Under the pieces are notes generated by a model that searched no databases, had not been told where the DNA came from, and was given only the letters and a program-made list of their open reading frames with translations. From positions 28,443,554 through 28,507,553 of the forward strand of contig NC_090282.1 in the NCBI RefSeq assembly GCF_037392515.1: a DNA stretch of 64,000 nt, read 5' to 3'. Of the stretch, positions 1 to 32,860 are shown piece after piece; the stretch's first letter is position 1, and the number at the start of each line of letters is the position of its first letter. A program made the translations under genes and the position numbers. Source of the DNA: Haliotis asinina. Lineage: Eukaryota > Mollusca > Gastropoda > Lepetellida > Haliotidae.

Positions 1-2180
1 TCCAGACACATGCATTTGTGACGGTGTGTGGTCCTGTGCATAGTGCTCAATTCATAAATCAGGTGAAGTTAACCAACGCTGGGTGCAGAGTGTCACTAGA
101 TTGGGTGACCGTGCTTAACATGTACAGTTTGACTCCTGAGGGTTTTTAAGTCGTCAGTCAAGTGAGTTTATTCAAAATTGTCTCCGGTCACCCAGCAGAA
201 AATGGGTACCGGGTAGTATAGGTCAACCGTCTGCCACCTAACGGGCGGGGTAATAATATGTTGTGGTTTAGTGTTAGCTCTATGAGCATACCTAGTGTGG
301 AGTTTGGCGGTATATAAATGAACACAACAAAGGTGTGTGTGGACGGGTGGACAACGTCTGCGTATTTATTGCGCAAGACCCTCATCTCGAGGGAAAACTC
401 TGACGCTGGAATGTCGACATCGATGTCTCCAGTGGAGCAAAGAACATTTGCGATGAAGATCACGTGGGTGGAGAAGAGTTCTCTCAACAAATGAGTCACG
501 TTTCCTTTTTCAGCAGCAGTATCTTAATCAGGGCAGTATTAATGGGCAACCTCCGGCCCGCTCCAACTCAGCATGTCTGGAGGTGAGATGAAGCGACATT
601 TACAACGCTATCCGAATCCTTCCAGAACAACGTCATTTCATTTGGGGCAATAAAACTTTAATACCTGTTCTGTTTGTTGTTTGTTTGTCACTATACCTTT
701 GGCCTTTGAGTTAACATTTTATTGCATTAATCAACAAACGAATGTCTTTTTGATGTATCGTGATGTACATGTACATGTAGGTAGACATACATATTTGATC
801 GGTGTAGTGGTTGTTTTATGAAAACACCTGTGAGGAATCACTAATATTATCAACATAAGATCTGGTTTTCTTATGAACTGCTTTACCCTGCATATTTCAG
901 AACATTTGAGAGGAACAAATGAACAGATGGAGGACAATATTTGTTGTTTGACATTTCTGTGTGGGGCCCGTTTACGTTCTCTGTCAATCCAACTTCTTCA
1001 CTAACTCACGCGTCACACAAACAGGTACGATAAGGTTTCAGAAGATATCAGATAAAGCGCCAGTATAGAGCAAATTCTAGAAAATGATTATTTCATATTG
1101 ATTTTTTCCCACCATTTACCCGACTTAATGGCTGCATGAGCATTTAAAACATGCATGCCTTCATGGTTTCAGAAATTCACTGTTGCCCTCTCTCTTATTT
1201 ATGTACATGACTGTTTCAAACAGTTGGAATGTATAGTCTGTTAAATTTCTGATCTCATTCATACACGGTCTAATGTACTAGGAGCGGTTTTGTAGCCCCG
1301 TGGTTTAAGCTTTTGCCCGTCACAGTGAAGTCTCACATTTGTACACTGTGAGAAACCCGTTTCTGGTGTTCCCCGCCACGATTTTGCTGGAATATTGCCA
1401 AAAGCGCTTACCTCCCGTATAAAGCTAAACTCATTCACTCATCTTATTATCTGAACGCCAGTGAGAGCATAGAAATTCCTGTATACTACTGAGCGACGCA
1501 ATGTTGGAATTACATGTATACAGATTATGTGAAGAATAAGTAGATAAGATCCATTGGTGTATGTATGAACAATTTTCACTTCTCAGTCTCGAGCGTATTC
1601 AGCACAGTCCTGGTACTTGATGATAATCAGTGTAGCTGGAGTAGTCTGGAACTATTGCCAGGATACAACCACTTACGTTTCGTACTTCTAGTCATTGAAG
1701 AACTAAACTCACTCACTCACTCACTCACTCACTCACTCCAGTCACTGTACGGCAGCATGTAACATTACGTTACATATTAGGTTTACTCGAGTATACGCTG
1801 TGGCATAAGGTTACACTATAAACAGAAACACCTTCACATGTAGGTCTTAAGACAACGTAAGTGATGAATAGTTTTCTTGTCTTCACACAAGTAGCCATCC
1901 TTGTTTCCCCTTCTTCACCTCACAGCTTTTCTTCAGAGAATCTATCATTCTGAACCATCATCAGTCAAGGTGGGACTGAAGACGTAGTGTAGAATGAATG
2001 AAGCACCTGTGCTATTAGAGCACATCATGGTGTTTAAATATCGGTGTGCAGGAGTTCTTCAGACCCAAGTTCGGGATTCATATTACGCTTGTCCAGATAA
2101 AAAAAACTGCCCAAAATAGATGCACTGATGTAGACAACAAAACAAAAGGTAAAATAAAAAACGTTACCAAAATAACTTCA
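1..2180. other. Gene-free left part of copy A (partner 18422-20605)
   Basis: No supported gene. It opens with sequence that in copy B follows a SINE ending near 18420. A minus-strand frame at 188-499 is open in both copies, but the few A/B changes in it are mostly amino-acid changing, so selection is not indicated. It contains a SINE at 1281-1441 and a second SINE-like tail ending in an ACTC array at 1711-1737. The rest is AT-rich and unremarkable. Confidence 0.6.
1281..1441 (+). mobile_element. tRNA-derived SINE, family S1 (copy A)
   Basis: Begins with a tRNA-like head (GTAGCCCCGTGGTTTAAGC), has a middle part with TTTCTGGTGTTCCCCGCC, and a tail GCTGGAATATTGCC followed by CTAAACTCATTCACTCATC. 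The same architecture recurs at 11968-12118, 58071-58232 and 58288-58437. This family and its CTCA-rich tail are typical of gastropod, especially abalone, genomes. Confidence 0.8.
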
Positions 2181-2184
2181 GTTA

Positions 2185-2440
2185 CCAAGTGAACCCCTGA
2201 CTTTAGTTGTTGGCAATCTAGAGCCCATATTTACATCTTTGTAATAATTAATTAAACATTTTAATGTTCTCAAACTAGTTTTAATAACATATGTGAAGAT
2301 CTAGTAGTTATACTGTCTTTCGATGACAACTTTTCATAAAATATTAATCTAGCTATTCTTATTGATGTCGACACGAATTGGCTGAAATATTGTCGATGTG
2401 ACGTATACTTTTAACTGACTGACTGACTCACTCACTCATT
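2185..2440 (+). mobile_element. 5'-truncated LINE 3'-UTR fragment (copy A)
   Basis: Aligns with the 3' untranslated end of the LINE next door (about 7950-8184). Shared landmarks in order are TTGTTGGC, CTAGTTTTAAT, ACTGTC.TTCG.TGAC, GGCTGA.ATATTG.CGATGTGACGTA and a final CTCACTCACTCA tail. It is more diverged than the main LINE, so it is an older insertion of a related subfamily. It lies immediately upstream of the full-length element. Confidence 0.75.
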
Positions 2441-2477
2441 CACTTACATCCTGAAATAGAAATTCAAAACAGAGAAA

Positions 2478-2537
2478 CCCTTATTGTAGCCACCTTTATT
2501 GTAGAAGCCTTTACTCTAGTAACCTTTACTGTAGTAT
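2478..2537 (+). repeat. 15-bp x 4 tandem repeat (copy A)
   Basis: Four consecutive 15-base units reading CCCTTATTGTAGCCA, CCTTTATTGTAGAAG, CCTTTACTCTAGTAA, CCTTTACTGTAGTAT. It lies between the old LINE fragment and the 5' end of the main LINE. The partner is at 20904-20963. Confidence 0.85.
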
Positions 2538-3235
2538 CCATGCATATAAAGATAAATTATGAAGCCATACTATTCGCAGAGGTTTGGGGTCAGTGTTGTG
2601 AACGTTATCGCCAACAGTTACTGCCCGCCTACTGTCATATAGGCACCTGTGGCGAGCTAACTCCTCGTGGTGGGTGCTGGGTAACGCCAAGAGCTCGCCG
2701 ACACCCCCGTAGTGGACCCGTGGGGATATTTGGTCCACCAACCCGTTTGCCGTGGGTTGCGGCTCTGTGTCGGTGGAGGAGGGGCCCTGGTGGTTGAGGG
2801 CAATGGGAGCAGGACCACTGTTCCTATTGCTCAACACACCACTTCGGCCCTGACTTCACCTAGACGGGAGGTTGAATGGGCCCGGTTCAACCAATCGGCT
2901 GGTCACGCCAAGCCCTGAGCATTACTGTATGTAATGTTGTACAAAGGTTTGAGAATTGTAATATGTTTATTATTAGGTCTTGGCCGATTTTTTTATCTTC
3001 TGTGAATTTCAAATTTTACTAATTCATGTTTTTGGCTAGAGTCGTATGCCCAGAAGGCGGTGGCGCATGGGTCAATCTGGTAGAATTATTAATGTTTTAA
3101 TTCTTCTGCTGGAGTATGTCATCCGAGTATCCTTGGTGCTGTAAGCTGGAGGCCCGTTACTTTAGCATTGTCCTTGTGATACTCCGTGGTGGGTGGGGAG
3201 CTCGGATGATGAACCATTTACACTAACCATGGCTT

Positions 3236-4504
3236 ATGAAAACCCAACACAAAACAACAAAACGTCCACTTGATATTGACCCTGTTGATACTGACCATAG
3301 ACCGTCTGCATCGATTGAGTATTGACCGCGTTTCATTGTGGTTTGAGACTCCTGACAAAACACCCTTGAAGTTGAATCCCTTTGCTGTATCCAAGGGTAT
3401 TCAAGGTATTGCAGCAGACGTGAAGAACATAGGACGCTTACGTTCAGGTGGCCTACTAGTAGAGTGCGGGAAAAAGCAACAAGCAACTAATTTGCTGAAC
3501 ATCAAATCTTTCGTGGGCATTCCGGTCACGGTCTCTGCACACAAAACCTTGAACTCAAGCAAAGGTATCGTTAGAGATCGAGGCCGATTGTTTGATGATA
3601 TGTCGGAACTTGATATAGGATCTGAAATGAAGGATCATGGTGTACTCTACGTCAAGCGCTTTTCAACTCGGAGAAACAGTGAAACCATCAAAACGAACAC
3701 GTATCTGTTTACTTTTTCATGTCCTAATGCTCCCAAATCAGTGAAGGCAGGCTACTGTAACATTCCAGTTGATACCTACATCCCCAACCCGCTAAGGTGT
3801 TTTAAATGTCAGAAATATGGACACGGTGTGAATAGTTGCACATTGTCTGTTGTGTGTGCTCACTGTGGTGAGAAGACACGCACAACAGAAGATTGTGACA
3901 GTGATTATAAAAAAATGCACCAATTGCTCAGGCGACCATTCTTCATTTTCTAAAGAGTGTCCAATTTGGAAAGAGCAAATGGAGATCAATAAAAAAACAT
4001 TACACAAAATATCTCTTTTTCTGAGGCCAAAAAAAACTGGTAAAGAGATCTGAACTTACAGAAAGTTATGCTACAGTAGCAAAAACATCATCGGGGTCTA
4101 GCTCTAAAACATCAACCACATGCTGCCACACTACTTTAACTTGGGTAAATTGCGATTCTCCACAGCTTTTGTACCCTGCTATATCATCACAGACTGAGGA
4201 ATCACTTCCTACTACCCCAAAGTCTTCTTCTGATCACAAATCATCATCTCAGTCACGCTCAACGTCTCAATCGACAGCTGATAGTCAACAAACGGTGAAA
4301 AGTAAACCGAATCCAAAGCCTGATCCTTCAAAACAACAATGTGGCAGAGCTCCTAAAGGGTCACAGAACAAAATTCAATTGTTCAATAAATACGGGTCTC
4401 TTGAAGACATGGACGTTTCTGAAAACGTCCATTCTAGGGCACATAGCTTGTCGCCCTCCAAAAGAGTGCGGGATAGATCCCCAATAAATCCCCCCAAAAG
4501 ATAG
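3236..4504 (+). pseudogene. LINE ORF1, gag-like RNA-binding protein (copy A, broken)
   Basis: Homologous to ORF1 nucleic-acid chaperones of I/Nimb-type LINEs, which coat the element RNA. The ATG at 3236 opens a frame that soon stops, because A carries a 25-base insertion near 3310 that B lacks. From 3340 the frame recovers with PLKLNPFAVSKGIQG, a core domain of about 130 residues, then CFKCQKYGHGVNSC (a perfect CX2CX4HX4C knuckle near 3800) and a second knuckle, CAHCGEKTRTTEDC, that has lost its histidine. A frameshift near 3910 puts the third knuckle (CTNCSGDHSSFSKEC) in another frame. A serine- and proline-rich tail ends in SPINPPKR at 4504. Confidence 0.85.
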
Positions 4505-4515
4505 TTTATTCCAAT

Positions 4516-6545
4516 AATATTGTACAGTGAAACTGCAGAGGATTGAGGACTAATTTACATGAATTACAGCTATTAGTCCACGATTTTACACCTTCAGCGA
4601 TATGTCTCCAAGAGACATATTTAAAACAAACAGACACATTTGACCTTTGTCAATTTAATGCATATCATTGTTTTGCACCTCCGGGTGATAGGGCCACTGG
4701 TGGATCATCCACTCTAGTCAGACAAAACGTTCCAACACATATTTGCACCCTGGTACAGGGACGTATTCTGCTCTCGATTTGTCACTCACAAATTCAGAAC
4801 TACTTAATGAATTTGAATGATCAGTCCACGGTGACCTCTGTGGAAGCAACATTTCCGTTGCCATCCTATGGTGCATAATTTAAATAAATTTAAACTGTAC
4901 TTTTAAACACAACAAACGCCAATCTTGGCAAAATTATGTATCCAAAATCAGTTCTCGGACACCCATGTCCAAGGTATGGAACATGGTCCAGAAAATTAAA
5001 GGTAAGGGTACTAAATCTACAGTCCATCATCTTAAACATGGAGATCAATTACTTACTGATAAATCAGATATTGCGAATAAACTGGGCGAAACTCTCGCTA
5101 AACATTCTTCCTCTTCTAATCATATACCTACATTTCAGCAATATCAAAAACAAGAAGAAAAGAAAACTATTAATTTCAATTCTGATAATGGGGAAGATTA
5201 TAATGAAACGTTTTCTATTCATGAACTCCATACTGCTCTTGATCAAGCTCATGACACTGCTACAGGAGCTGATAACATACATTATCAACTCCTGAAGCGC
5301 TTTAGAGACGCTCTTACCAATTTTTGATGATATTTGGACTTCCGGGAAATTTCCTTCTTCATGGCGTGACGCTATAGTAGTACCAATACCTAAACCTGGA
5401 CGTGATCATACGGATCCATCCAATTATCGTCCGATTTCATTAACTAGCTGTGTTTGTAAGACCATGGAACGCATGATAAATAATCGACTAGTTTGGTACT
5501 TGGAAACAAATAACCTCATAACAGATATACAATGTGGTTTCCGTTTCCGTTTGTGAAAAACGCGCTGATTAATGAAGAACACGCTGTGTCTATCTTTTTT
5601 TGATCTCGGAAAGGCCATTGACACAACCTGGAAATATGGCATTTTGAGAGATTTACATGATTTCGGTTGAAGGTCGTTTGCCTGAATTCATAGGCAAATT
5701 TTTAAATAACAGACAATTTCCGCGTGGGTTCTACCCTGTCTGATCATTACAATCAGGATCAGGGTGTTCCACAAGGCAGTATTTTGTCAGCCACAGTTTT
5801 TAGTATAAAGATAAATAGTTTATCAAAAGTTTTAAACTATTCAAATATGAATACCACAGAGCGGCAGTTGCAGTTGTGTTTAAACAAAATAAATAAATGG
5901 TGTTTTGAAAACGGCTTTAAATTTTCTAAATCAAAAACTAATTGCATACATTTTGTCGTAAATACAAACCACATAGAGACCCTGAACTATCTCTAGATGG
6001 CACTCCCATTAAAGTTGTCAAGGAAGCCAAGTTCTTGGGATTAATTTTTGACTCACACCTAACGTTTCTGCCTCATATTAAAACTCTGAAAACTAAATGC
6101 CTGAAAGCACTTGCTTTGTTGAAAGTGGTATCAAATTCTAAATGAGGAGGTGATCAAGCTACCCTCCTCCATCTATATCGATCACTTGTCCGTTCTAAAC
6201 TTGATTATGGCTCCAATCGTATATGGTGGAGCCTGCAACAGCAACTTAAAGGTATTAGATTCTGTTCATCATCAAGGTCTAAGACTTTGTCTGGGCTCTT
6301 TTAGAACCTCTCCTATCGACAGTCTATACGTTGAAGTTGATGAGCCTTCTCTCAACCAACGCCGCATAAAACTATCTTTACAATACATTACAAAATTAGC
6401 TTCTAATGAGTTTAATCCCGCATTTAATTGTGTCTTTAATCCTCTCTATGAGCATTTGCATAACAAAAAGTCTTCCCTTGTTCAGCTTCTTGGTCTCAGA
6501 ATTAAGCCATTCTTGCTGCTTCTATCATTGAGCTGGAAAATATAG
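4516..6545 (+). pseudogene. LINE ORF2, endonuclease and reverse transcriptase part (copy A, broken)
   Basis: Starts with the endonuclease motif around CRGLRTN, where the expected tryptophan codon is a stop in this copy, then SAICLQETYL with the catalytic glutamate. The endonuclease is cut short after about 75 residues and the rest of the domain is gone. Reverse transcriptase blocks follow in several frames: ATGADNIHYQLLKR, NYRPISLTSCVCKTMERM (5420-5475), FFDLGKAIDTTWKYG, GVPQGSILS (about 5765) and NGFKFSKSKTNCIHF. The block that should carry the YVDD catalytic motif is missing: SLSKVLNYSN runs straight into MNTTERQLQLCLNKI. The polymerase cannot have been active. Confidence 0.85.
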
Positions 6546-6548
6546 CAA

Positions 6549-6976
6549 TAAGGCCGGGCGGGACGTGGTTCTGGTACTGGTACTAATAGGCTTTAAACAG
6601 GGAAAACGACATCATTTAAAGCAAGTCTATCTTAAATTATTTAACGATTGTGTTTAATCTTATTCAACTAAGATAATTCTGGTAGCAAAACAAAAATATC
6701 AGATATACTCTCTACTTTTGTTAAATTGAGATAATTCTGGTAGTGAAATCAAAAAATTCTGCCAGAAATTTCTGCAGGAAAAAAAATTTCTGCCAGAAAT
6801 TTCTGCGGGAAAAAAAATTCTGTCAGAAAGTTCTGCAGAAATGCATTTTCAGAGCCAGTTTCTGAGCTTATTAACACGTGAATACACTGGCAAATGAACT
6901 TTTCGTGTTCATCTCCTCGAGATCTTTCCAATGATATAAAATATGTCTTTGTAGCTTGCTCCCTTCTGTGTGTCAA
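6549..6976 (+). mobile_element. MITE inserted in LINE ORF2 (copy A, right end lost)
   Basis: Starts TAAGGCCGGGCGGGAC, the left inverted repeat seen complete in copy B at 24960. In A the right end has gone with the roughly 298-base deletion that also removes the start of the RNase H domain. It carries two imperfect copies of a block with GATAATTCTGGTAG and a minisatellite at 6752-6842. Confidence 0.8.
6752..6842 (+). repeat. Minisatellite in the MITE, 3 units (copy A)
   Basis: Purine-rich units of roughly 25-35 bases, each reading about AATTCTGCCAGAAATTTC plus TGCAGGAAAAAAA. A has three units and B has four. CAGAAATTTCTG is itself palindromic, so each unit can fold. Confidence 0.8.
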
Positions 6977-7630
6977 CGCCATATTAACGCCATATTAACA
7001 GCTCTTAAATATATCGAAAGACACCCTAAACATAAACAATATATAATCTATTCCGACTCTCTTTCTTGCCTTCAGGCTATTAAAAATATTTCTTGTAAAC
7101 ATCCACTTTTAATAGAAATTATTGAATTGTGTAATGATCTTGCCACTGGCCAATATGACATCGTCTTCTGTTGGTTACCAAGCCATGTAGGAATCTCTGG
7201 TAACACATTGGCTTACTTTGCTGCTAAAGCAGCACTCAACAAATCTGTGACACCACTTCTTATTCCTTATAGTGATTACAAAGCTACCATTCGATCTTAT
7301 ATCCGTGATCCGATGCAAAAGAAGTGGGACACCCAAGTGGGTATCAATAAATTACATGAGATAAAACCTTACATTGGTTATACCCATTTGGGTTGTCAGT
7401 CCAGATTTGAAGAGGTTATTTTACGACGATGTCGTGTTGGCCCCACTAGATATACTCATGCGTACCTGTTAAAAGGTGAGGATCCTCCATTTTGTATCCC
7501 TTGTGATGAGAGAGTCACAGTCAAGCATATTCTGCTTGACTGTGTTGAATTCTCCATCACAAGGGATAAGTATTTTACAGTTAAAACAATGAAGGATCTT
7601 TTACCAGCGTTAATTCTTATTTTATTATAG
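6977..7630 (+). pseudogene. LINE ORF2 C-terminus: RNase H domain and CCHC-like end (copy A)
   Basis: Reads through ALKYIERHPKHKQYI, YSDSLSCLQAI (RNase H third acidic residue), VFCWLPSHVGISGN, and a C-terminal zinc-finger-like block with RRCRVGPTRYTHAYLL, CIPCDERVTVKHILLDC. The first RNase H strand with its aspartate and the glutamate helix are deleted in A. Compared with copy B at 25502-26359, the open part differs by about three bases in 620. In the element's cycle this domain would remove RNA from the RNA:DNA hybrid. Confidence 0.85.
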
Positions 7631-8184
7631 ACTGAATTTTGAATAGTATGTTCTGTAAATATTTTAGTGATTGGTTGTTTGAATTAGTAACTTGGATTGT
7701 TGGTGGCTGTACCCTCAAAGCTGGTTGAAGTATAGTAAAATTATTGTCCTCCTGAGAGGGTACGTAAGTCCACAAACATTCACAGTAAATTTAAGTTTAC
7801 CAGGTTTTTAATCATAGTATTCATGTTCATTTAATTTTGGCTAACTTTTCGTACAATCGCCAGCAGCCGAAGGGATGGTGTAAATCCAACTAGGGTCCAT
7901 GTAGGTAGCAAAGGTACTGTAAGTCCCCATGGTCCCTAGTGTGGTGACCTACCTTCTGTTGTTGGCGATCTATAGTCTGTTTGTATATTGTATTGTCTAA
8001 ATAGTGATATTAGTTTTGACTTTCCATGCTAGTTTTAATTGAAATTGTGATATTCTAGTTGTTTTACTGTCCTTCGTTGACCGATTTTACCACATGCATA
8101 TATTTCATTTAAATGTTCTCGTCACGATATGGCTGAGATATTGCCGATGTGACGTAAAATATTAACTCACTCACTCACTCACTC

Positions 8185-10040
8185 CTGTCATATATATGAC
8201 ATTATGTATCACCATCTTCACTGACGTCCTGGATTTCTCCGTCTGATCAACAGATTCCTGTCTCCTCGGGGTCATTGTGAAATCAATATGGAATGAAGAA
8301 TACACCAAATGACTTTCATTTAAGATTAGTAAGTTTATTTATGTACAGATTTAAAGTACAGTACCGACTAAAAATGAACAAATATGATGTACATGTCATA
8401 TAGGAATTAATACGATAACCATTTTTCGTATTAGTGCATACACTGTGAAACGCTGAGGTAAAACTGAAATATATGTTACGAGTGTGTATTTCTTGTATAT
8501 TTTGTTATTAATTCAGTAATAATTATTATTGGGTCACAACATTTAGTGTTTTGAATAATAATTATGATGGGTCATATTTCGTTTTATTAGTGATCAACAC
8601 TTTTAGGATCTGGTTTTCCGGAATTTATCTGCTCCTAGTTTTCTATGTGTTTGCTTCCGGGAGTAATTGTAACTGGAGTTACATCGCCAACAATCATCAA
8701 CGCCTTATCTACATCATCCGCTGTCAGACCGATCCCTGTGTTAACATTCTGCATAGTTGATTCTCTCTCATACCAAGACTTTGGTGAGTTTGCTACTAAA
8801 TATATTTTGTGACCCATTGCCATAGATTTTGTCACACATATATTGCATTTGAAATCTGTGTTGTGAAATTGACTTGTGACTTTGTATACGTTGCTCTTCT
8901 TGCATAATAATAATACATAATTTGAACTTTTATGACTTGTCTTTGTTCTGTTTTGCTGGTTCACAAGGGGATTTCTTACATCGATTGTCTAGCATAATTT
9001 ATGCATTGCACAATGCTTGGATTGTACAATGAAGGTATCATACGTTCCTGAAGATTAGGATATACACAGGATACTAAAAGACCTTCCGTGTAATACCACC
9101 TTTTTAGATGAGTTAATGCTTTGGTATCAAACAAGAAAAAGCGAATTTAGTCTTCTGTTTATTACTCCTCAACATATATTGATAGAAAGTACAGTGTGAT
9201 GACTCACAAATTTCCGCGGGTCAAGCAAGGTCTGATACAACTGTGACAGAGATATTAGCAGTGTCACGTCATAACCGTAAAACATTATGACGTCATACGT
9301 CAAAAGATATTACACGAGTGTAATACTGACGTAAAAATGTTGCTTTGGAGTATCTTCCACGTGCGAGTAATAAATTGAGGTTTTTTTTCAACCGAATGTA
9401 TTCCTGAAAACAGATTACTTTAAACGGAAGAGCGTGAGTAGTTTGACCAAGTGTATCACAGTATATTTTGGACGGCTACTATTTCCCAAACCACTAAAGA
9501 CCTATTTAACAAGTGAAACAGTGCACAAGCTTGACGAAATATTTCAGTGTACGAAGCTCTAATGAGCTAAAAAAAAACACGATACTGTACAAGAAATTTG
9601 TACCGAAAGAATGTTCTGCTTTCTTCAGCCATCACAGGAGTACTGCCACGCGTATTACTCGTGCCATTGGGATATATATTTGTTAACGTCCAATGCCTGT
9701 TGGCCGTCGTTGCGGTTCAGTTAATAAAGCGTGTGCAAAGACGGCGACACGAGTGACTCGAGCCCCGGCCGCAGCGTAGCATAACATGTTAAAATATGGC
9801 GCTTGTTGTTACCTTGCCTGGCGTTCGGCATAAACGACATAGAAAGTAGAATGGTTCTCTCCAAAAGTATCAGAGTTTAGTTGAGTATTTTTCAACGCTA
9901 GAGTCTCGTACTTCTGGCAAAAGTAATTCCAACGAGAAATAGAAGAGAAAAACTGACTCGGAGAACTCAATCACTAAAATTCAGTAATTTACACCAACCT
10001 TTCGCGCAAAGGGTACGGAATGACGGAGATAGTGATATAT
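8185..10040. other. Intergenic part of the duplicated unit (partner 26914-28790)
   Basis: Mostly AT-rich sequence without recognised genes apart from the unassigned minus-strand frame at 8635-8964. It holds a perfect TGACGTCA (CRE-like palindrome) at 9288-9295 among several CGTCA half-sites, and ATTACACGAGTGTAAT, another palindrome, shortly after. From about 9700 to 9850 the sequence becomes CpG-richer, just upstream of the candidate two-exon gene. There is no clear TATA box. Confidence 0.5.
8635..8964 (-). CDS. Unassigned minus-strand open frame, possible exon relic (copy A)
   Basis: 109 residues, not recognised. It contains CNICVTKSMAMGHKIYLVAN, then LTADDVDKALMIVGDVTPVT and ITPGSKHIEN before the stop at 8635. 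The B partner extends nine residues further at its N-terminus because A lacks 26 bases there. The few A/B differences in the shared part change amino acids (Asn/Lys, Thr/Ala, Asp/Ala), so there is no sign of constraint. It could be a chance frame, an old exon, or a scrap of a transposase. No upstream exon or promoter was found. Confidence 0.2.
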   Translation of the reverse strand: MNQQNRTKTSHKSSNYVLLLCKKSNVYKVTSQFHNTDFKCNICVTKSMAMGHKIYLVANSPKSWYERESTMQNVNTGIGLTADDVDKALMIVGDVTPVTITPGSKHIEN

Positions 10041-10048
10041 TGTTCGAC

Positions 10049-10742
10049 ATGGAGAGTTTACTAGAGGAAACTGGAAGTCCTTTTGGAAAGAGCAGTGGAT
10101 CCTTCAGACGATTCTGTTGGTGTATGTTGGGTACTGGGGTCTACGTAATGGTTCAGGTTTACTTACTGGGATGTCATCGCGTGTCCAGTACTGCTGCTCC
10201 TTGTCGGTTACTCGAGAGTGGTTATTCTATGATGTAGGTGTAATATATCTGCTTTGGGCTGGGTCTGGTGGTGCAGCTTCATTGTAAGCAGGACCATTTG
10301 TCAGTTTTACTGAGTCAACTACGGAGACATTAAAAATGGCACAATTATGATATAAAAAGAACATTTTTCTTCCCCTTCTTGTAACAAAATCTCTACATGT
10401 GTGTGTGAGTGAGACGTAATCATTTACAATCGTTATGTATATTTTACAAACCCACCTGAAAACTTGTTATCCTGTCACAGGATATCCTCGTCCATCATCT
10501 CATGATTCTCCATTTTTGTGTGTTTGTTTACAGGTTGCTGCAGTGTATGTATTGCGTACTTCGCAGATGCTACCGATGGGCACGACATGTGTACCTATTT
10601 CGAGAACACCTGGTGTTATCGCGGATATTTTTTCAGCGATCCACATTTTGCCGCATCTGGTTTTATTTCTGTAGAGATTTCCGTCGTGTGCCCTCAGTTT
10701 CAGTATTGGGGACATGCGATCACTGTGGTTAGGGATTCGTGA
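10049..10742 (+). CDS. Candidate two-exon small cysteine-rich protein gene (copy A)
   Basis: Exon 1, 10049-10121, encodes MESLLEETGSPFGKSSG then SFRRFCW and ends in phase 1 at a good donor (T|GTATGT). Exon 2, 10534-10742, follows a pyrimidine-rich acceptor (TTTGTGTGTTTGTTTACAG) and stays open for 69 codons to a TGA. The phases agree: T plus GT makes a cysteine codon, giving CWCCCSVC at the join. The product would be 93 residues, with aromatic and cysteine-rich sequence such as MCTYFENTWCYRGYFF. No family is recognised. Copy B has the same structure with one Thr/Ile change in exon 2. All three frames of exon 2 are largely open, so the frame choice rests on the splice model alone. Confidence 0.3.
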
Positions 10743-10784
10743 GGGTGTGGCCGTGACAATCGAGGGAGAATTCAGTTGTGCTGA

Positions 10785-20868: not shown

Positions 20869-20903
20869 CTTACATCCTGAAATAGAAATTCAAAACAGAG
20901 AAA

Positions 20904-22895: not shown

Positions 22896-22906
22896 TTTAT
22901 TCCAAT

Positions 22907-24956
22907 AATATTGTACAGTGGAACTGCAGAGGATTGAGGACTAATTTACATGAATTACAGCTATTAGTCCACGATTTTACACCTTCAGCGATATGTCTCC
23001 AAGAGACATATTTAAAACAAACAGATACATTTGACCTTCGTCAATTTAATGCATATCATTGCTTTGCACCTCCGGGTGATAGGGCCACTGGTGGATCATC
23101 CACTCTAGTCAGACAAAACGTTCCAACACATATTTGCACCCTGGTACAGGGACGTATTCTGCTCTCGACTTGTCACTCACAAATTCAGAACTACTTAATG
23201 AATTTGAATGATCAGTCCACGGTGACCTCTGTGGAAGCAACATTTCCGTTGCCATCCTATGGTGCATAATTTGAATAAATTTAAAATTGTAAATGCTAAA
23301 GCACGGCGTACTTTTAAACAGAACAAACGCCAATCTTGGCAAAATTATGTATCCAAAATCAGTTCTCGGACACCCATGTCCAAGGTATGGAACATGGTCC
23401 AGAAAATTAAAGGTAAGGGTACTAAATCTACAGTCCATCATCTTAAACATGGAGATCAATTACTTACTGATAAATCAGATATTGCGAATAAACTGGGCGA
23501 AACTCTCGCTAAACATTCTTCCTCTTCAAATTATATACCTACATTTCAGCAATATCAAAAACAAGAAGAAAAGAAAACTATTAATTTCAATTCTGATAAT
23601 GGGGAAGATTATAATGAAACGTTTTCTATTCATGAACTCCATACTGCTCTTGATCAAGCTCATGACACTGCTACAGGAGCTGATAACATACATTATCAAC
23701 TCCTGAAGCGCTATAGAGACGCTCTTATCAATTTTTGATGATATTTGGACTTCCAGGAAATTTCCTTCTTCATGGCGTGACGCTATAGTAGTACCAATAC
23801 CTAAACCTGGACGTGATCATACGGATCCATCCAATTATCGTCCGATTTCATTAACTAGCTGTGTTTGTAAGACCATGGAACGCATGATAAATAATCGACT
23901 AGTTTGGTACTTGGAAACAAATAACCTCATAACAGATATACAATGTGGTTTCCGTTTCCGTTTGTGAAAAACGCGCTGATTAATGAAGAACACGCTGTGT
24001 CTATCTTTTTTTGATCTCGAAAAGGCCATTGACACAACCTGGAAATATGGCATTTTGAGAGATTTACATGATTTCGGTTGAAGGTCGTTTGCCTGAATTC
24101 ATAGGCAAATTTTTAAATAACAGACAATTTCCGCGTGGGTTCTACCCTGTCTGATCATTACAATCAGGATCAGGGTGTTCCACAAGGCAGTATTTTGTCA
24201 GTCACAGTTTTTAGTATAAAGATAAATAGTTTATCAAAAGTTTTAAACTATTCAAATATGAATACCACAGAGCGGCAGTTGCAGTTGTGTTTAAACAAAA
24301 TAAATAAATGGTGTCTTGAAAACGGCTTTAAATTTTCTAAATCAAAAACTAATTGCATACATTTTGTCGTAAATACAAACCACATAAAGACCCTGAACTA
24401 TCTCTAGATGGCACTCCCATTAAAGTTGTCAAGGAAGCCAAGTTCTTGGGATTAATTTTTGACTCACACCTAACGTTTCTGCCTCATATTAAAACTCTGA
24501 AAACTAAATGCCTGAAAGCACTTGATTTGTTGAAAGTGGTATCAAATTCTAAATGGGGAGGTGATCAAGCTACCCTCCTCCATCTATATCGATCACTTGT
24601 CCGTTCTAAACTTGATTATGGCTCCAGTCGTATATGGTGGAGCCTGCAACAGCAACTTAAAGGTATTAGATTCTGTTCATCATCAAGGTCTAAGACTTTG
24701 TCTGGGCTCTTTTAGAACCTCTCCTATCGACAGTCTATACGTTGAAGCTGATGAGCCTTCTCTCAACCAACGCCGCATAAAACTATCTTTACAATACATT
24801 ACAAAATTAGCTTCTAATGAGTTTAATCCCGCATTTAATTGTGTCTTTAATCCTCTCTATGAGCATTTGCATAACAAAAAGTCTTCCCCTGTTCAGCTTC
24901 TTGGTCTCAGAATTAAGCCATTCTTGCTGCTTCTATCATTGAGCTGGAAAATATAG
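22907..24956 (+). pseudogene. LINE ORF2, endonuclease and reverse transcriptase part (copy B)
   Basis: Same structure as 4516-6545, but the first endonuclease motif is intact (VQWNCRGLRTN, catalytic asparagine) and is followed by CLQETYL. The endonuclease is again truncated, ending at 23269. A reverse transcriptase N-terminal segment (23259-23738), a NYRPISLTSC block, FFDLEKAIDTTWKYG, GVPQGSILSVTVF and the thumb region follow in separate frames. The YVDD-bearing block is absent here too, so the loss predates the duplication. Confidence 0.85.
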
Positions 24957-24959
24957 CAA

Positions 24960-25449
24960 TAAGGCCGGGCGGGACGTGGTTCTGGTACTGGTACTAATAG
25001 GCTTTAAACAGGGAAAACGACATCATTTAAAGCAAGTCTATCTTAAATTATTTAACGATTGTGTTTAATCTTATTCAACTAAGATACTTCTGGTAGCAAA
25101 ACAAAAATATCAGATATACTCTCTACTTTTGTTAAATTGAGATAATTCTGGTAGTGAAATAAAAAAATTCTGCCAGAAATTTCTGCAGGAAAAAAAATTT
25201 CTGCCAGAAATTTCTGCGGGAAAAAAAATTCTGCCAGAAAGTTCTGCAGAAAAAAATTCTGCCAGAAAGTTCTGCAGAAATGCATTTTCAGAGCCAATTT
25301 CTGAGCTTATTAACACGTGAATACACTGGCAAATGAACTTTTCGTGTTCATCTCCTCGAGATCTTTCCAATGATATAAAATATGTCTTTGTAGCTTGCTC
25401 CCTTCTGTGTGTCAAGTTAGGACTCGCTGGCCATTCCCGCACGGCCTTA
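24960..25449 (+). mobile_element. Complete MITE with terminal inverted repeats, inside LINE ORF2
   Basis: 490 bases from TAAGGCCGGGCGGGAC to ATTCCCGCACGGCCTTA; the ends are inverted repeats matching at 14 of the outer 16 bases. The related LINE fragment at 13195-13250 is uninterrupted here (GAGCTGGAAAATATAACTCC), which gives an empty-site comparison. TAGC lies at both junctions (24954-24957 and 25448-25451) and may be the target duplication, although its overlap with the inverted repeat makes the exact edge ambiguous. There is no transposase inside, so this is non-autonomous. The superfamily is not decided. Confidence 0.8.
25164..25280 (+). repeat. Minisatellite in the MITE, 4 units (copy B)
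   Basis: Same repeat as 6752-6842 but with one extra unit ending AAGTTCTGCAGAAA, so the array length has changed since the segment duplicated. Confidence 0.8.
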
Positions 25450-25501
25450 GCTCCTTCCCGTCTTCTTTCTTCTCCTCCTTGGCAGTTGATTAGGCCACAA
25501 G

Positions 25502-26359
25502 TTGACATTAGCTACATTTAAAAAATCAGAAACGAATGAATTACAGTATAAACAAGATTATAATCAATTGAAACATAAATATTATAGCAATTATAAATCC
25601 TTATTTACAGCTGGGTCCAAGGACGGTGGCGCAGTGGCTTGTGCCACTGTCATTGGATCCAGAACAATATCTTCTAGATTACCAGATAATAGTTTTATTT
25701 TTACAGCAGAAGCTAACGCCATATTAACAGCTCTTAAATATATCGAAAGACACCCTAAACATAAACAATATATAATCTATTCCGACTCTCTTTCTTGCCT
25801 TCAGGCTAGTAAAAATATTTCCTGTAAACATCCACTTTTAATAGAAATTATTGAATTGTGTAATGATCTTGCCACTGGCCAATATGACATCGTCTTCTGT
25901 TGGTTACCAAGCCATGTAGGAATCTCTGGTAACACATTGGCTTACTTTGCTGCTAAAGCAGCACTCAACAAATCTGTGACACCACTTCTTATTCCTTATA
26001 GTGATTACAAAGCTACCATTCGATCTTATATCCGTGATCTGATGCAAAAGAAGTGGGACACCCAAGTGGGTATCAATAAATTACATGAGATAAAACCTTA
26101 CATTGGTTATACCCATTTGGGTTGTCAGTCCAGATTTGAAGAGGTTATTTTACGACGATGTCGTGTTGGCCCCACTAGATATACTCATGCGTACCTGTTA
26201 AAAGGTGAGGATCCTCCATTTTGTATCCCTTGTGATGAGAGAGTCACAGTCAAGCATATTCTGCTTGACTGTGTTGAATTCTCCATCACAAGGGATAAGT
26301 ATTTTACAGTTAAAACAATGAAGGATCTTTTACCAGCGTTAATTCTTATTTTATTATAG
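25502..26359 (+). pseudogene. LINE ORF2 C-terminus with RNase H (copy B, long open frame)
   Basis: An open frame of 285 residues from about 25502. RNase H blocks in order: SLFTAGSKDGGAVACATVIG, AEANAILTALKYIERH, YSDSLSCLQASKN, VFCWLPSHVGISGNTLAYFA. Two catalytic acids are gone: the first motif is TAGS instead of TDGS, and the last is LAYF where family members have LADF. The glutamate (AEAN) and the middle aspartate (SDS) remain. The domain folds on paper but should be inactive. A zinc-finger-like C-terminus, CIPCDERVTVKHILLDC, follows. The long frame reflects recent decay, not function. Confidence 0.85.
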
Positions 26360-27363
26360 ACTGAATTTTGAATAGTATGTTCTGTAAATATTTTAGTGAT
26401 TGGTTGTTTGAATTAGTAACTTGGATTGTTGGTGGCTGTACCCTCAAAGCTGGTTGAAGTATAGTAAAATTATTGTCCTCCTGAGAGGGTACGTAAGTCC
26501 ACAAACATTCACAGTAAATTTAAGTCTACCAGGTTTTTAATCATAGTATTCATGTTCATTTAATTTTGGCTAACTTTTCGTACAATCGCCAGCAGCCGAA
26601 GGGATGATGTAAATCCAACTAGGGTCCATGTAAGTAGCAAAGGTACTGTAAGTCCCCATGGTCCCTAGTGTGGTCACCTACCTTCTGTTGTTGGCGATCT
26701 ATAGTCTGTTTGTATATTGTATTGTCTAAATAGTGATATTAGTTTTGACTTTCCATGCTAGTTTTAATTGAAATTGTGATATTCTAGTTGTTTTACTGTC
26801 CTTCGTTGACCGATTTTACCACATGCATATATTTCATTTAAATGTTCTCGTCACGATATGGCTGAGATATTGCCGATGTGACGTAAAATATCAACTCACT
26901 CACTCACTCACTCCTGTCATATATATGACATTATGTATCACCATCTTCACTGACGTCCTGGATTTCTCCGTCTGATCAACAGATTCCTGTCTCCTCGGGG
27001 TCATTGTGAAATCAATATGGAATGAAGAATACACCAAATGACTTTCATTTAAGATTAGTAAGTTTATTTATGTACAGATTTAAAGTACAGTACCGACTAA
27101 AAATGAACAAATATGATGTACATGTCATATAGGAATTAATACGATAACCATTTTTCGTATTAGTGCATACACTGTGAAACGCTGAGGTAAAACTGAAATA
27201 TATGTTACGAGTGTGTATTTCTTGTATATTTTGTTATTAATTCAGTAATAATTATTATTGGGTCACAACATTTAGTGTTTTGAATAATAATTATGATGGG
27301 TCATATTTCGTTTTATTAGTGATCAACACTTTTAGGATCTGGTTTTCCGGAATTTATCTGCTC

Positions 27364-27720
27364 CTAGTTTTCTATGTGTTTACTTCCGGGAGTAATTGTA
27401 ACTGGAGTTACATCGCCAACAATCATCAACGCCTTATCTACAGCATCCGCTGTCAGACCGATCCCTGTGTTAACATTCTGCATAGTTGATTCTCTCTCAT
27501 ACCAAGACTTTGGTGAGTTTGCTACTAAATATATTTTGTGACCCATTGCCATAGATTTTGTCACACATATATTGCATTTGAAATCTGTGTTGTGAAATTG
27601 ACTTGTGACTTTGTATACCTTGCTCTTCTTGCATAATAATAATACATAATTTGAACTTTTATGACTTGTCTTTGCTCTGTTTTGCTGGTTCACAAGGGGA
27701 TTTCTTACATCGATTGTCAC
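27364..27720 (-). CDS. Unassigned minus-strand open frame, possible exon relic (copy B)
   Basis: 118-residue partner of 8635-8964, with the extra N-terminal MTIDVRNPLV. The 26-base block that A lacks sits just upstream on the + strand at 27719-27744, and the break is flanked by a short TCT/TC repeat, as in a small slippage or microhomology deletion. Function unknown; it may not be a gene. Confidence 0.2.
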   Translation of the reverse strand: MTIDVRNPLVNQQNRAKTSHKSSNYVLLLCKKSKVYKVTSQFHNTDFKCNICVTKSMAMGHKIYLVANSPKSWYERESTMQNVNTGIGLTADAVDKALMIVGDVTPVTITPGSKHIEN

Positions 27721-28798
27721 GGTAAATTTTTAACTGTAACATCTAGCATAATTTATGCATTGCACAATGCTTGGATTGTACAATGAAGGTATCATACGTT
27801 CCTGAAGATTAGGATATACACAGGATACTAAAAGACCTTCCGTGTAATACCACCTTTTTAGATGAGTTAATGCTTTGGTATCAAACGAGAAAAAGCGAAT
27901 TTAGTCTTCTGTTTATTACTCCTCAACATATATTGATAGAAAGTACAGTGTGATGACTCACAAATTTCCGCGAGTCAAGCAAGGTCTGATACAACTGTGA
28001 CAGAGATATTAGCAGTGTCACGTCATAACCGTAAAACATTATGACGTCATACGTCAAAAGATATTACACGAGTGTAATACTGGCGTAAAATGTTGCTTTG
28101 GAGTATCTTCCACGTGCGAGTAATAAATTGAGTTTTTTTCAACCGAATGTATTCCTGAAACAGATTACTTTAAACGGAAGAGCATGAGTAGTTTGACCAA
28201 GTGTATCACAGTATGTTTTGGACGGCTACTATTTCCCAAACCACTAAAGACCTATTTAACAAGTGAAACAGTGCACAAGCTTGACGAAATATTTCAGTGT
28301 ACGAAGCTTCAATGAGCTAAAATAAAACACGATACTGTACAAGAAATTTGTACCGAAAAAATGTTCTGCTTTCTTCAGCCATCACAGGAGTACTGCCACG
28401 CGTATTACTCGTGCCATTTGGATATATATTTCTTAACGCCAAGTGCCTGTTGGCCGTCGTTGCGGTTCAGTTGACAAAGCGTGTGCATAGATGGCGACAC
28501 GAGTGACTCGAGCTCCGGCCGCAACGTAGCATAACACGTTAACATATGCCGCTTGTTGTTACCTTGCCTGGCGTTCGGCATAAACGACATAGAAAGTAGA
28601 ATGGTTCTCTCCAAAAGTATCAGAGTTTAGTTGAGTATTTTTCAACGCTAGAGTCTCGTACTTCTGGCAAAAGTAATTCCAACGAGAAATAGAAGAGAAA
28701 AACTGACTCGGAGAACTCAATCACTAAAATTCAGTAATTTACACCAACCTTTCGCGCAAAGGGTACGGAATGACGGAGAGAGTGAAATATTGTTCGAC

Positions 28799-29492
28799 AT
28801 GGAGAGTTTACTAGAGGAAACTGGAAGTCCTTTTGGAAAGAGCAGTGGATCCTTCAGACGATTCTGTTGGTGTATGTTGGGTACTGGGGTCTACGTAATG
28901 GTTCAGGTTTACTTACTGGGATGTCATCGCGTGTCCAGTACTGCTGCTCCTTGTCGGTTACTCGAGAGTGGTTATTCTATTATGTAGGTGTAATATATCT
29001 GCTTTGGGATGGGTCTGGTGGTGCAGCTTCATTGTAAGCAGGACCATTTGTCAGTTTTACTGAGTCAACTACGGAGACATTAAAAATGGCACAATTATGA
29101 TATAAAAAGAACATTTTTCTTCCCCTTCTTGTAACAAAATCTCTACATGTGTGTGTGAGTGAGACGTAATCATTTACAATCGTTATGTATATTTTACAAA
29201 CCCACCTGAAAACTTGTTATCCTGTCACAGGATATCCTCGTCCATCATCTCATGATTCTCCATTTTTGTGTGTTTGTTTACAGGTTGCTGCAGTGTATGT
29301 ATTGCGTACTTCGCAGATGCTACCGATGGGCACGACATGTGTACCTATTTCGAGAACACCTGGTGTTATCGCGGATATTTTTTCAGCGATCCACATTTTG
29401 CCGCATCTGGTTTTATTTCTGTAGAGATTTCCGTCGTGTGCCCTCAGTTTCAGTATTGGGGACATGCGATCATTGTGGTTAGGGATTCGTGA
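28799..29492 (+). CDS. Candidate two-exon small cysteine-rich protein gene (copy B)
   Basis: Partner of 10049-10742. Exon 1 is 28799-28871 and exon 2 is 29284-29492, with donor, acceptor and stop unchanged. The only coding difference from A that I see is Thr to Ile in WGHAI[T/I]VV. Nothing downstream suggests a polyadenylation signal close by; a SINE follows at 29535. Speculative, no recognised domain. Confidence 0.3.
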
Positions 29493-29532
29493 GGGTGTGG
29501 CCGTGACAATCGAGGGAGAATTCAGTTGTGCT

Positions 29533-29735
29533 GAGTGTGGGAGTGCGTTTTACGCCGCCCTCAGGAATATTACAGCTATGTAGAAACGATCTCTGTCTAA
29601 TCGAATCTGGAAACAGACAATCCAGTGATGCGTGAGCATGACCTACCTGTGTCAACCAACTTAGCGAACCTGTCCATCCTCTTGCCTCTTGCGACTAGCA
29701 TGCGACCCTGAAGATGACTTCTAACCCGAAAAGTC
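29533..29735 (+). mobile_element. SINE-like repeat, family S2 (copy B), decayed
   Basis: Partner of 10785-10985, almost unchanged. Confidence 0.75.
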
Positions 29736-30701
29736 ATGTTGAATAGCTCTGCAGTAAGTGCGTGGCATAAAACAACTGCGGCAGGCTCATCGACAGGTAC
29801 ATATGAGTATCACATCTCTGACTGGAAACATACATTTTATTCCTACAGTCTGTTTGCAGTGAAATCATGCTGATGATGTTTACTTTAAACAAATAGGTAA
29901 ACCAAACATCGTGAAATTAAGATGACAAATCCTCCTAATTTTTGCTTGCCATTTGAAAATTTAAGTCTCAGAATTTTATTCAACTTAAGAAAAGTATAAA
30001 TGTTCTTTAACAAACCATAATAGTTTCAAATCGCTATTTGTATTAAAGGGGGAAAGCGCAGTAGTTGGGACAGTGAAACAAATGCTCCTGCGGTACGTGT
30101 TCAACATTAGCAACACTGGTTCTCGGTGTTTCATTTAATGTGCATGCTCCCTTGTAATACAAGTAAATAAAGCTATCTGAAACTGTGATCGTTTTCTTGA
30201 ACAACTTTCATCCTAGTCGGCATGAATTTTTAGATTTAAATGTTCAAGTGGCAAGGTAAAATTATTTAAATGGTTTACTTTTTTGTTTGAAGTGAAAATC
30301 AATTTGTTCATGAAACTTTTCCTGATCTCAGCCCCTCTGTTCCAGGATGAAACAATGTGTACACCATTATTATCTGTGGAAAGATTTGAAATTCGAAACT
30401 TGACTTGAAAATTTAAAGACTTCAGAAACTCTGATGTGAAGGTTACGCCTCAAAATACTGTCTCGAATCATATAGACAAGAAGCTTATTGTGTTAATTCT
30501 GATAAATGTCGACCATCCATTTCTTTAAATGACGCTACCGTGGTTTCGACGATGAAACCTATCAAAGAAGCTCAGGTCACGTTTAGAAACGAAGAACTGA
30601 GCAAATCGTATTTTGATCAAGCACAAAGGGAAGTTAACGATCGATAAAATCGAAATAAATATCTCCTAGCGTTAGATCAAATCTTCACTCAAGTCGTAAT
30701 A

Positions 30702-30852
30702 AGATGAAGGTGGCTGTGACGCTCTTAGCAATATTCCAACATAATCACGGCGGGGACACCGGAAATGGACTTCACACATTATATCCCTGTGGGAAATCGA
30801 ACCCGGGTCTTCAGCAAGACAAACGAACTCTTTGACTACTTAGCTACACCAA
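30702..30852 (-). mobile_element. tRNA-derived SINE, family S1 (copy B)
   Basis: Partner of 11968-12118 with a couple of substitutions. Confidence 0.85.
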
Positions 30853-31654
30853 CACTCCGATTTAATTTCCAACATGTATGCACACGCACATACTTTCTTC
30901 TAGTGTCATATTTTACAAACCTGTTATTAAAGAGTAGATACATTCCTGCAACTCATACCTCTATCTCAGTATTTCTCAGAAGAAATAAATACATTCCTTG
31001 TGATAACAGTTTCGTAACCCTTCTGATTCATTTGATAAAATCCATGTGTCCCTGGACACAGAAACTGAAAGAAATCTTACTGTCAATTATCTTTAAAAGG
31101 CTCGGTATTTACGGCATTTCATTGCGCAATATTTTTTTTATCTTTCAACATGATCGCCTGCATGAGATCATAAAGGAACAGCTCTTGAAAATACGGCATG
31201 GCTGTTCAATTTCTAGCTAAGCAACATGTATGCATGCATGGTGTGACAAATTCATTCAACCCTTGATACGTCAAGTGTTATATACTGCGTCGTATAAAAA
31301 GCGTAAATGACATCAATATATTATTAAAGGAAGTTCATTACTGGTATTCCATCCAAACTACATTTTCTGCTACCGCGTTATGTTCTTTATGCCTCGTAAT
31401 TTGGTTAAAGACTAACTTCACACAGAACGTAAACCTGCACCGTCTTTACAGTGATTGTAGTCTTGATGCCCACGTCCATTTCCACCGATATTGTGAAATA
31501 TATCTTCATCTATGTTATGATTATGTAAAATGTCAAAGAGTAAAACAGAACGTGTAGCTTGGCAGTAATATCAAAACAAGACTTAGTCTGTAACGCTGGA
31601 TATTGGTTTCTAAATAATTCCGCATTCTTACATGATGCGATACTGAACTGACGG

Positions 31655-32553
31655 GATCTGTTGATGAGGATGCAAATCAAACTGTGCGACTTTGTCTTGG
31701 ATCTTTTAAAACTCTCCTGTTGACGGGCTCTATGCTGAAGCTGATGAGCCATCCCTTAACCATCGTCGTATACAAATATCCTTACAGTATATAACAAAAT
31801 TCTGTTCTAACTATTCTAAATCTGCATTTGACTATTTTCAATCCTCTTCATGAGGATTTGTACAAGTTTTATTTTGTTCCGCCTCATGGGACAAGAATTA
31901 AACCGCTCATTTCTGCTGCTGACACTGAGCTGGAAAATATATCTCCTTCCCGTCTTCTTTCTTCTCCTCCTTGGCAGCTTGTGAGGCTTGAAGTTGACCT
32001 AGCTCTGACAAAATTTAAGAAATCAGAACCCAATAAATTACAATATAAACAAGAATGTGATCAATTAAGACTAAAGTATGATACATACACATCCTTATAT
32101 ACAAATGGGTCCAAGGATAGTGAGACATATATCCTCTAGAATACCGGATAACAGCTGTATTTTCAAAGCAGAAGCAAACGACATATGAACGACTCTTAGA
32201 TATATGCAGACACATTAAACATAAACCATACATATTTCTTTCCGATTCTCTTTTGTGTCTTTAGGCTAATAGCAATCTTTCTTGTAAACATCCACTTTTA
32301 ATCGAAATTATTGAATGGTATAAGTAACTTGCTTCTGGCCAATGTGACATCGTCTTTTGTTGGGTACCCAGCCATGTAGGCATTTCTGGAAACACAATGG
32401 CCAAATTTCCTGCTAATGCAGTACTCAACAAATCTGTGACACCACTTCAAATCGTACTCTGATTACAAGGTTAACATTAAATAGAACATCCATGATCTGA
32501 TGCAGAAGTGAGACACCCAGCTACATATCAATAAATCACTTGAAATATTATAG
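31655..32553 (+). pseudogene. Older decayed LINE ORF2 fragment (copy B)
   Basis: Partner of 12930-13836. In the RNase H part it is nearer the family consensus than A (for example CCAGCCATGTAGGCATTTC and GACATCGTC are kept). It has TNGSK in place of TDGSK. Confidence 0.85.
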
Positions 32554-32594
32554 ATCAAACTTAATGGATAACAACTTTTTTTCGTGAGAGCGAC

Positions 32595-32810
32595 TCAGTG
32601 AGACTTAAAAAATGCATTTTCTGACAGCAATTGTTGCCGATAATCGGACGTTTTGCCTAGACACGGTTTTCCGGTACGAACAGGAAGTATTTCATCTACT
32701 TCGGGTTCCTCAAAGCGATCGCTATGCTCAGATTCGTTAACACAGTACTGAGACCGTCTTGTGAAACGGAACCCAATACAAGACAACTTGAACTTGAATT
32801 CCCTTATCAT
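32595..32810 (-). pseudogene. Acidic minus-strand frame at the duplication edge, possible exon relic (copy B)
   Basis: Partner of 13910-14125. It shares CVNESEHSDRFEEPEVDEIL and PVRTGKPC and continues to LLSENAFF. Preservation of the acidic block despite flanking indels is suggestive but not proof of coding. Confidence 0.25.
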
Positions 32811-32860
32811 TCTACAACTATTTTCCGTCGCATCTGGTAATTTTCACATTCCAGCTCAAA

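Follow-up and report, generated by a model that had tools for sequence, protein, structure and literature searches.

Probable old tandem duplication and later intragenic unequal crossing-over in a cluster of seven ApeC genes of Haliotis asinina

The 64,000-nucleotide stretch of Haliotis asinina DNA analyzed here (the window) starts within a tandem cluster of seven ApeC genes, shortly before the cluster ends. We consider it probable that the locus went through an old tandem duplication of 18.1 kb, a partial homogenization of the two copies, and later intragenic unequal crossing-over within the seven-gene cluster. The initial annotation had described a single-copy ApeC gene flanked by two long repeats. 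The assembly contradicts this description, with seven open ApeC genes within 44 kb, and the gene seemed to stand alone because of where the window was cut. Upstream positions are given as the position on contig NC_090282.1 (C3) minus 28443553, with values below 1 lying upstream and 0 being a valid position.

The ApeC Gene Cluster

The gene in the window, U5, encodes an ApeC-containing protein (PF16977, E 2.9e-55, profile positions 1–208 of 208), whose N-terminus reads, as judged by eye, as a signal peptide. A six-frame Pfam scan of the stretch between the repeats (the spacer) bore out the earlier claim that this is its only ApeC gene, giving a single ApeC open reading frame, no second domain above cut-off, and one match to Ig_5 below it. 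U5 does not qualify as an apextrin proper, in which a MACPF/perforin domain precedes ApeC: with an E limit of 0.05, the six frames of 14137–18421 gave no MACPF match. In viral and prokaryote collections, a single-protein query, which reaches close relatives only, confirmed no close relative of the U5 protein, and no PDB match was found up to E 1.

Six further open ApeC genes lie within 43.2 kb upstream, the nearest of which ends 1.6 kb before the window, and the 134 kb read contain seven full-length open ApeC reading frames, Uinv on the minus strand and U0, U1, U2, U3, U4, and U5 on the plus strand. A genome-wide search, in which 30 of 30 candidates were followed up, returned 20 matches, 7 of full or nearly full length and 13 partial ones at 33–42% identity. 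The former, all located in the cluster, run from residue 1, 2, or 3 to residue 239 without stops, and nowhere else in the genome did the search find a full-length match in a single exon. The dN/dS ratio is 0.10 for U4–U5 and 0.17–0.35 in 11 of the 15 plus-strand pairs, with higher values for U3–U4 (0.51) and U2–U4 (0.60). Among the literature matches listed, titles and the beginnings of abstracts describe no ApeC array in abalone, a weak indication.

Mixed Genes and Unequal Crossing-Over

Over 1400 bp of 5′ flank, U2, U3, and U4 are 99.4–99.9% identical to one another and U5 is 90.3–90.4% identical to these three; for U0 and U1, the 5′ match to the other genes is limited to ~170–250 bp. On the 3′ side (1300 bp), it is U1, U2, and U3 that are alike (99.1–99.9%), U4 and U5 share 93% identity, and no match was found for U0 and Uinv. 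Such a mixture of 5′ and 3′ flank types, together with uniform units (three intergenic segments, 3516, 3507, and 3505 bp long, share 99.3–99.6% identity), characterizes an array built by unequal crossing-over in its genes. The same mixture is seen within the genes. Between −146 and 802, U2 and U3 have 87 informative sites each. Of the 55 that lie no further than position 380, 51 are U4-type (3 are U1-type and 1 is neither), and from 534 on all 32 are U1-type. Both genes seem to have arisen by unequal crossing-over within an ApeC gene, a known kind of event that here looks very clean, although sites −57, 312, and 315 oppose a single clean switch.

Other trios were also compared. With U3 and U5 as its parents, U4 gives an overlapping switch at 476–534 (112 to 5 on the left, 1 to 36 on the right); with U0 and U2 as parents, U1 gives a less marked one at 140–236 (31 to 21, then 1 to 27). 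A control trio, U5 as a child of U3 and U0, also shows a switch, at 532–534 (62 to 6, then 5 to 12; Fisher value 5.8e-7). In view of these three further switches, U2 and U3 are putative hybrids and the Fisher values are non-strict tests. The three near-identical 4.2-kb units (C3:28428536–28441233), like all copies, were read from one assembly. The unequal crossing-over first suggested for this locus draws support from the mixed genes and from the 4.2-kb units, nearly identical in sequence, that lie upstream, but the exchange sites appear to be the genes and not A and B.

Replication-based template switching, or gene conversion onto existing copies, could also have generated the 4.2-kb units and the mixed genes. 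The off-type sites 312 and 315 suggest a short conversion, and the 1-kb sequences that flank the breakpoints of the 18.1-kb duplication show no homology that we could find, which points to non-homologous mechanisms acting at the locus. However, the 5′ flank type gives way to the 3′ flank type at one intragenic place, which the two genes share and which has more than 1 kb of each type beside it; this is the simple expectation of crossing-over. We therefore regard these alternatives as unlikely, and crossing-over as the presumed agent of the mixed genes.

The Duplicated Unit and Its Divergence

The two long direct repeats of the initial annotation, A and B, proved genuine; they surround a 4-kb stretch and match on the same strand in two parts, 1–6976 with 18422–25415 at 96.7% identity and 6985–14134 with 25714–32858 at 97.3%. 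The left edge first assigned to the repeat is that of the window, as the match extends to −52 in the assembly and the window starts 53 bases within A. A 3-kb piece of A (8001–11000) has two full-length places among the 40 scored of 8107 candidates. The spacer has an upstream counterpart carrying its own ApeC gene (table 1), and positions 15000–17500 find a second full match at C3:28440472–28442922 (95%). The duplicated unit comprises a gene stretch and A, ~18.1 kb in all, and −3950..14134 and 14140..32858 are long, high-identity direct copies with defined ends, as is proper to a tandem segmental duplication.

Table 1. Positions of the duplicated units, the ApeC gene U5, and associated elements.
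Feature	Position	Strand	Remarks
Gene part of unit 1	-3950..-44	+	wholly upstream of window; ApeC CDS -2320..-1604
Repeat copy A, part two of unit 1	1..14134	+	left end outside window, -52
Degenerate LINE-type retrotransposon in A	3240..7630	+	Pfam domains
Right terminal part of A	13583..14134	+	9.1–9.2% diverged from B; ~90% of A/B 0.84%
Duplication junction between end of A and start of second gene stretch	14135..14140	.	
Gene stretch (spacer) of unit 2	14140..18096	+	92.6% identical to -3950..-44
ApeC gene U5	15759..16478	+	open, single-exon, 239 aa, last of seven; hydrophobic N-terminus, then ApeC domain
9-bp direct repeat AGTGCACTG, left copy	18088..18096	+	
High-copy short interspersed element, ~271 bp	18097/18098..18368	+	unit 2 only, between spacer and B
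9-bp direct repeat AGTGCACTG, right copy	18369..18377	+	
Repeat copy B, part two of unit 2	18369..32858	+	right edge 32858
Counterpart LINE-type element in B	21653..26359	+	scanned outside the reverse transcriptase part: endonuclease and RNase H slightly above cut-off

The site of the ~271-bp element is empty in unit 1 (−52..−44), and pieces of this element were found neither in papers nor in viral contigs. In A, the LINE-type element gave a reverse transcriptase match above the Pfam cut-off in one frame, with a weak continuation in another, and matches to a CCHC knuckle, an endonuclease, and RNase H below cut-off; B contains 290 bp without counterpart in A at this element. An origin of the A/B duplication by recombination between two LINE copies, expected from the 9% divergence of the right end, was dropped because the 1 kb before −3950 matches neither the last 1 kb of A/B nor the first 1 kb after B.

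Other features of the window were searched for as well. A stretch after 18422 that resembles 5S rRNA by eye gave no Rfam 5S match in 17900–18800 (E up to 1); snoU25 matched weakly there, below its gathering score, and the window contains no Rfam family at gathering score and no tRNA. Tandem units also occur downstream, at 33.6–53 kb. The first of these has no Pfam match above cut-off in six frames (one Fumarate_red_C match lies below it), and when the units were compared in translation, many frames matched on either strand and no gene was called.

Overall, A and B diverge by 1.76%. A two-state model places 90% of 14,033 sites at 0.84% and 10% at 9.9%, with a log-likelihood gain of 110 vs. at most 1.9 in 20 permutations. 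Of the 11 high-divergence segments, only the longest (13583–14134) is at the right end of A, whereas ten lie inside A; some represent poorly aligned sequence (2107–2253, 6971–6991). When U4 and A are compared with U5 and B, divergence is 6.9% in the left block (10.5% and 10.7% in its first two 250-bp bins), 2.2% in the gene part, 1.4% in the core of A, and 9.1% at the right end, the outermost 0.5 kb being 9–11% diverged at both ends of the unit. Inside the unit, divergence further reaches 7.5% in the bin at −500 and 4.8% in −52..300.

A and B, together with U4 and U5, respectively, might be alleles that the assembler set in tandem, an alternative raised from the outset. Their overall divergence is close to the heterozygosity of abalones (1.27–1.44%, PMC6774278; 1.56%, PMC9709981), haplotig purging shrank one abalone assembly from 1.91 to 1.38 Gb (PMC6774278), and the islands of ~10% inside A could be old alleles. 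An assembler join does not predict, however, that divergence should be highest in the terminal 0.5 kb on either side of the unit; moreover, the two copies have different flanks, no N occurs in the 134 kb, and in this assembly the adjoining genes are themselves arrayed in tandem. Haplotypic duplication is thus disfavored and, in our estimation, very improbable, and the divergence pattern appears to suit an old, later partly homogenized duplication better. As for a lone ApeC gene whose copy number is set by exchange between A and B, an appearance that the window taken by itself does give, it is refuted by the six genes upstream and is hardly credible.

Proposed History and Related Systems

The order of events may be reconstructed as follows. 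The 18.1-kb segment comprising the U4 stretch and A would have been duplicated in tandem long ago, producing the U5 stretch and B. Later exchange, by gene conversion or crossing-over, would have re-homogenized most of the two copies, from which the outermost parts and some internal islands would have escaped, and unit 2 would have gained a short repeat element. In a separate, more recent process, unequal crossing-over in the ApeC coding sequence of U1 and U4 would have inserted 4.2-kb units. U2 and U3 would thereby have become hybrids, of U4 type up to a switch that falls somewhere from about 380 to 534 in the CDS and of U1 type beyond it.

A study of molluscan ApeC-containing proteins (ACPs; PMC9585378) describes short forms such as CgACP1 and BgACP1, with an N-terminal signal-like stretch and one ApeC domain, and reports 1–25 ACP sequences per mollusc species and nine groups. 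U5 seems to share this organization but differs in being one of seven single-exon genes that are closely related and clustered together. In lancelets, presence/absence variation affects ApeC genes, reportedly 5 of the 13 annotated ones in each of the two species (PMC12373286); these dispensable genes are population evidence from chordates, whereas here variation between individuals would follow from the structure of one assembly. The SpTransformer clusters of sea urchins, as excerpted from PMC10887614, contain 4.3-kb segmental duplications, some nearly identical, and family composition varies among animals. They have in common with the ApeC array the clustering of immune-type genes with segmental duplications; however, SpTransformer is another gene family, for which short tandem repeats are proposed as a basis of instability, whereas here exchange appears to take place in the coding sequence.

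ApeC copy number may vary between individuals, and the proteins may have an immune role here. It is possible, though we hold it rather doubtful, that the ApeC coding sequence is a recombination site that is still changing gene number in this animal, with individuals carrying different sets of chimeric ApeC proteins. If so, recombination would shuffle two parts of a bacterial-recognition protein, the N-terminal one, with the leader, the linker, and at least the first half of the domain, and the C-terminal one. This case shows that a window edge can make a member of an array appear single-copy. What began as a guess about one gene is now a tandem array that is well delimited and whose switch points are narrow. 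It could serve as a marker of copy-number variation in this gene family, which in other animals binds bacteria.

Two copies of a gene-bearing unit

The two long direct repeats of the initial annotation, here A (left) and B (right), were borne out by self-comparison of the window, in which 1-6976 matches 18422-25415 (96.7% identity) and 6985-14134 matches 25714-32858 (97.3%). Because the match begins at exactly base 1, its real left edge had to lie out of view; in the genome it extends upstream to -52 (window position x is C3:28443553+x, so that 0 and negative values fall upstream), pairing with 18369, and the spacer between A and B (14140-18096) has its own counterpart at -3950..-44, with 92.6% identity. 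The duplicated unit is therefore the gene stretch plus A, -3950..14134 (unit 1), and its second copy is 14140..32858 (unit 2). Among 40 of 8107 candidates scored across the genome (1,143,192,487 bases, 159 contigs), 8001-11000 of A had two full-length places, A and B, the other matches listed reaching about 0.5 kb at most. Homology between the sequences around the duplication breakpoints was looked for and not found.

A and B share a degenerate LINE-type element, in which the Pfam cut-off was reached only by a reverse transcriptase in A and by an endonuclease and RNase H in B. The two A/B matches are separated by a 290-bp stretch of the RNase H part of the LINE, carried by B (25415-25714) but not by A (6976-6985). 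After the ApeC cluster, three more diverged tandem units occupy 33631-52972, with matching pieces 68-88% identical; no Pfam domain above cut-off was found in six frames of 33.6-37.2 kb.

The 239-aa open reading frame with a full ApeC domain between A and B had been taken for a single-copy gene, which does not hold: tblastn with its protein recovered seven full-length ApeC genes in the surrounding 134 kb (table), all with open frames of 239 or 244 aa. Genome-wide, all 30 candidates were scored and yielded 20 matches, namely the seven array genes plus 13 partial matches elsewhere, 33-42% identical, 3 of the 13 with internal stops. As this search works exon by exon, intron-bearing ApeC genes of full length may have escaped it. 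Whereas distant relatives match piecewise (e.g., query 32-125 and 123-208), each array gene has a single coding exon, and the founder of the array may have been a retrocopy. Outside the window, six pieces of distant ApeC relatives (33-42%) lie in C4:81322969-81449489, two of them interrupted by stops; this may be another ApeC cluster, one whose genes have introns.

Full-length ApeC genes of the array, in window coordinates
Gene	Left end	Right end	Strand	Search
Uinv	-27360	-26644	minus	tblastn
U0	-20197		plus	tblastn
U1	-15023		plus	tblastn
U2	-10772		plus	tblastn
U3	-6545		plus	tblastn
U4	-2320	-1604	plus	tblastn
U5	15759	16478	plus	tblastn

Divergence between the copies

Under a two-state model, 90% of the 14,033 A/B sites diverge by 0.84% and 10% by 9.9%; the log-likelihood is 110 higher than with a single rate (gain in 20 permutations, at most 1.9). 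The high-divergence segments number 11: the longest (13583-14134) forms the right end, and the remaining 10 are inside A. Between units, mismatch is 6.9% in -3950..-2701 (first two 250-bp bins, 10.5% and 10.7%), falls to 2.2% across the gene part, is 3.35% for the 3' flank and 4.8% for -52..300, drops again to 1.4% over the core of A, and reaches 9.1% in the final 552 bases. This pattern fits an old duplication with later exchange between the copies, since the outermost parts would be old and most of the inside young, with islands remaining between. That A and B are instead alleles set in tandem by the assembler seems improbable: the islands inside A would fit this too, and mean A/B divergence is close to heterozygosities reported for abalone, 1.27-1.44% (PMC6774278) and 1.56% (PMC9709981), but such placement does not require the greatest divergence at both ends. 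Separately, in 2107-2253, amid near-identical sequence, A and B disagree at 28 of the 146 aligned positions and show small shifts, through either a local rearrangement or a misalignment.

At the gene/A border, unit 2 contains about 271 bp of extra sequence, an element at 18097/18098-18368 with the 9-bp AGTGCACTG on each side, and unit 1 has a single AGTGCACTG with nothing inserted, an empty site. The element is high-copy (40 of 1423 genome candidates scored, the window's own place included). In 37 of the 39 other places it spans query 57-63 to 327-331, with the same two ends; the remaining two start at 42 and 48, the latter reaching 341, and identity is 94-99% throughout. Insertion into unit 2 after the duplication is the simplest reading; loss from unit 1 through deletion between the 9-bp repeats is less simple.

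Probable hybrid genes within the array

The 5' flanks (1400 bp) of U2, U3, and U4 are mutually 99.4-99.9% alike, U5 matches them at 90.3-90.4%, and U0 and U1 match the others across about 170-250 bp. In the 3' flanks (1300 bp), U1, U2, and U3 are mutually 99.1-99.9% alike and U4 and U5 93%, the two groups sharing only pieces of 133 and 560-604 bp (81-82%); those of U0 and Uinv are without a match. Of the 87 sites at which U1 and U4 differ (-146 to 802, A of ATG = 0), 55 lie at or before 380; U2 and U3 carry the U4 type at 51 of these, the U1 type at -57, 312, and 315, and neither type at -21. From 534 onward, all 32 sites are U1-type in both genes. Between U1 and U2, U2 and U3, and U3 and U4 lie 3516, 3507, and 3505 bp, respectively, and these intergenic segments are 99.3-99.6% identical. 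Exactly this would remain if U1 and U4 had undergone unequal crossing-over within the gene and the array had then undergone it again. We prefer to read U2 and U3 as probable hybrids of this origin, because one type of event then accounts for the three near-identical intergenic segments. Less preferred are U4 as a hybrid of U3 and U5, with an overlapping switch (112:5 left, 1:36 right), and U1 as a hybrid of U0 and U2, with a weaker one (31:21 left, 1:27 right). A control in which U5 is derived from U3 and U0 shows a switch as well (532-534; 62:6 left, 5:12 right), and these comparisons do not decide between the readings. The unequal crossing-over initially suggested for this locus is supported in part, with exchange placed inside the genes rather than between A and B.

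Selection, putative function, and known parallels

Over full coding sequences, dN/dS is 0.10 for U4-U5, 0.17-0.35 in 11 of the 15 plus-strand pairs, 0.51 for U3-U4, and 0.60 for U2-U4; U2 and U3 differ by no amino acid, and the six Uinv pairs give 0.26-0.35. The array copies look maintained as proteins. By domain content, U5 appears to resemble the short-form ApeC-containing proteins (ACPs) more than apextrins proper, because the ApeC domain is present and no MACPF domain was found nearby. Recombinant short-form ACPs from one oyster and one snail are described as binding and agglutinating microbes, not killing them, and as binding Lys-type peptidoglycan with high affinity (PMC9585378); a like putative function may be proposed for U5.

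Presence/absence variation that includes ApeC genes is reported in lancelets (PMC12373286), and massive presence/absence variation in mussels (PMC7653742), in a paper whose main text contains neither "apextrin" nor "ApeC"; sea urchin immune clusters are reported to carry 4.3-kb segmental duplications (PMC10887614). The ApeC array locus is a clean, fresh example of an already known kind of event.
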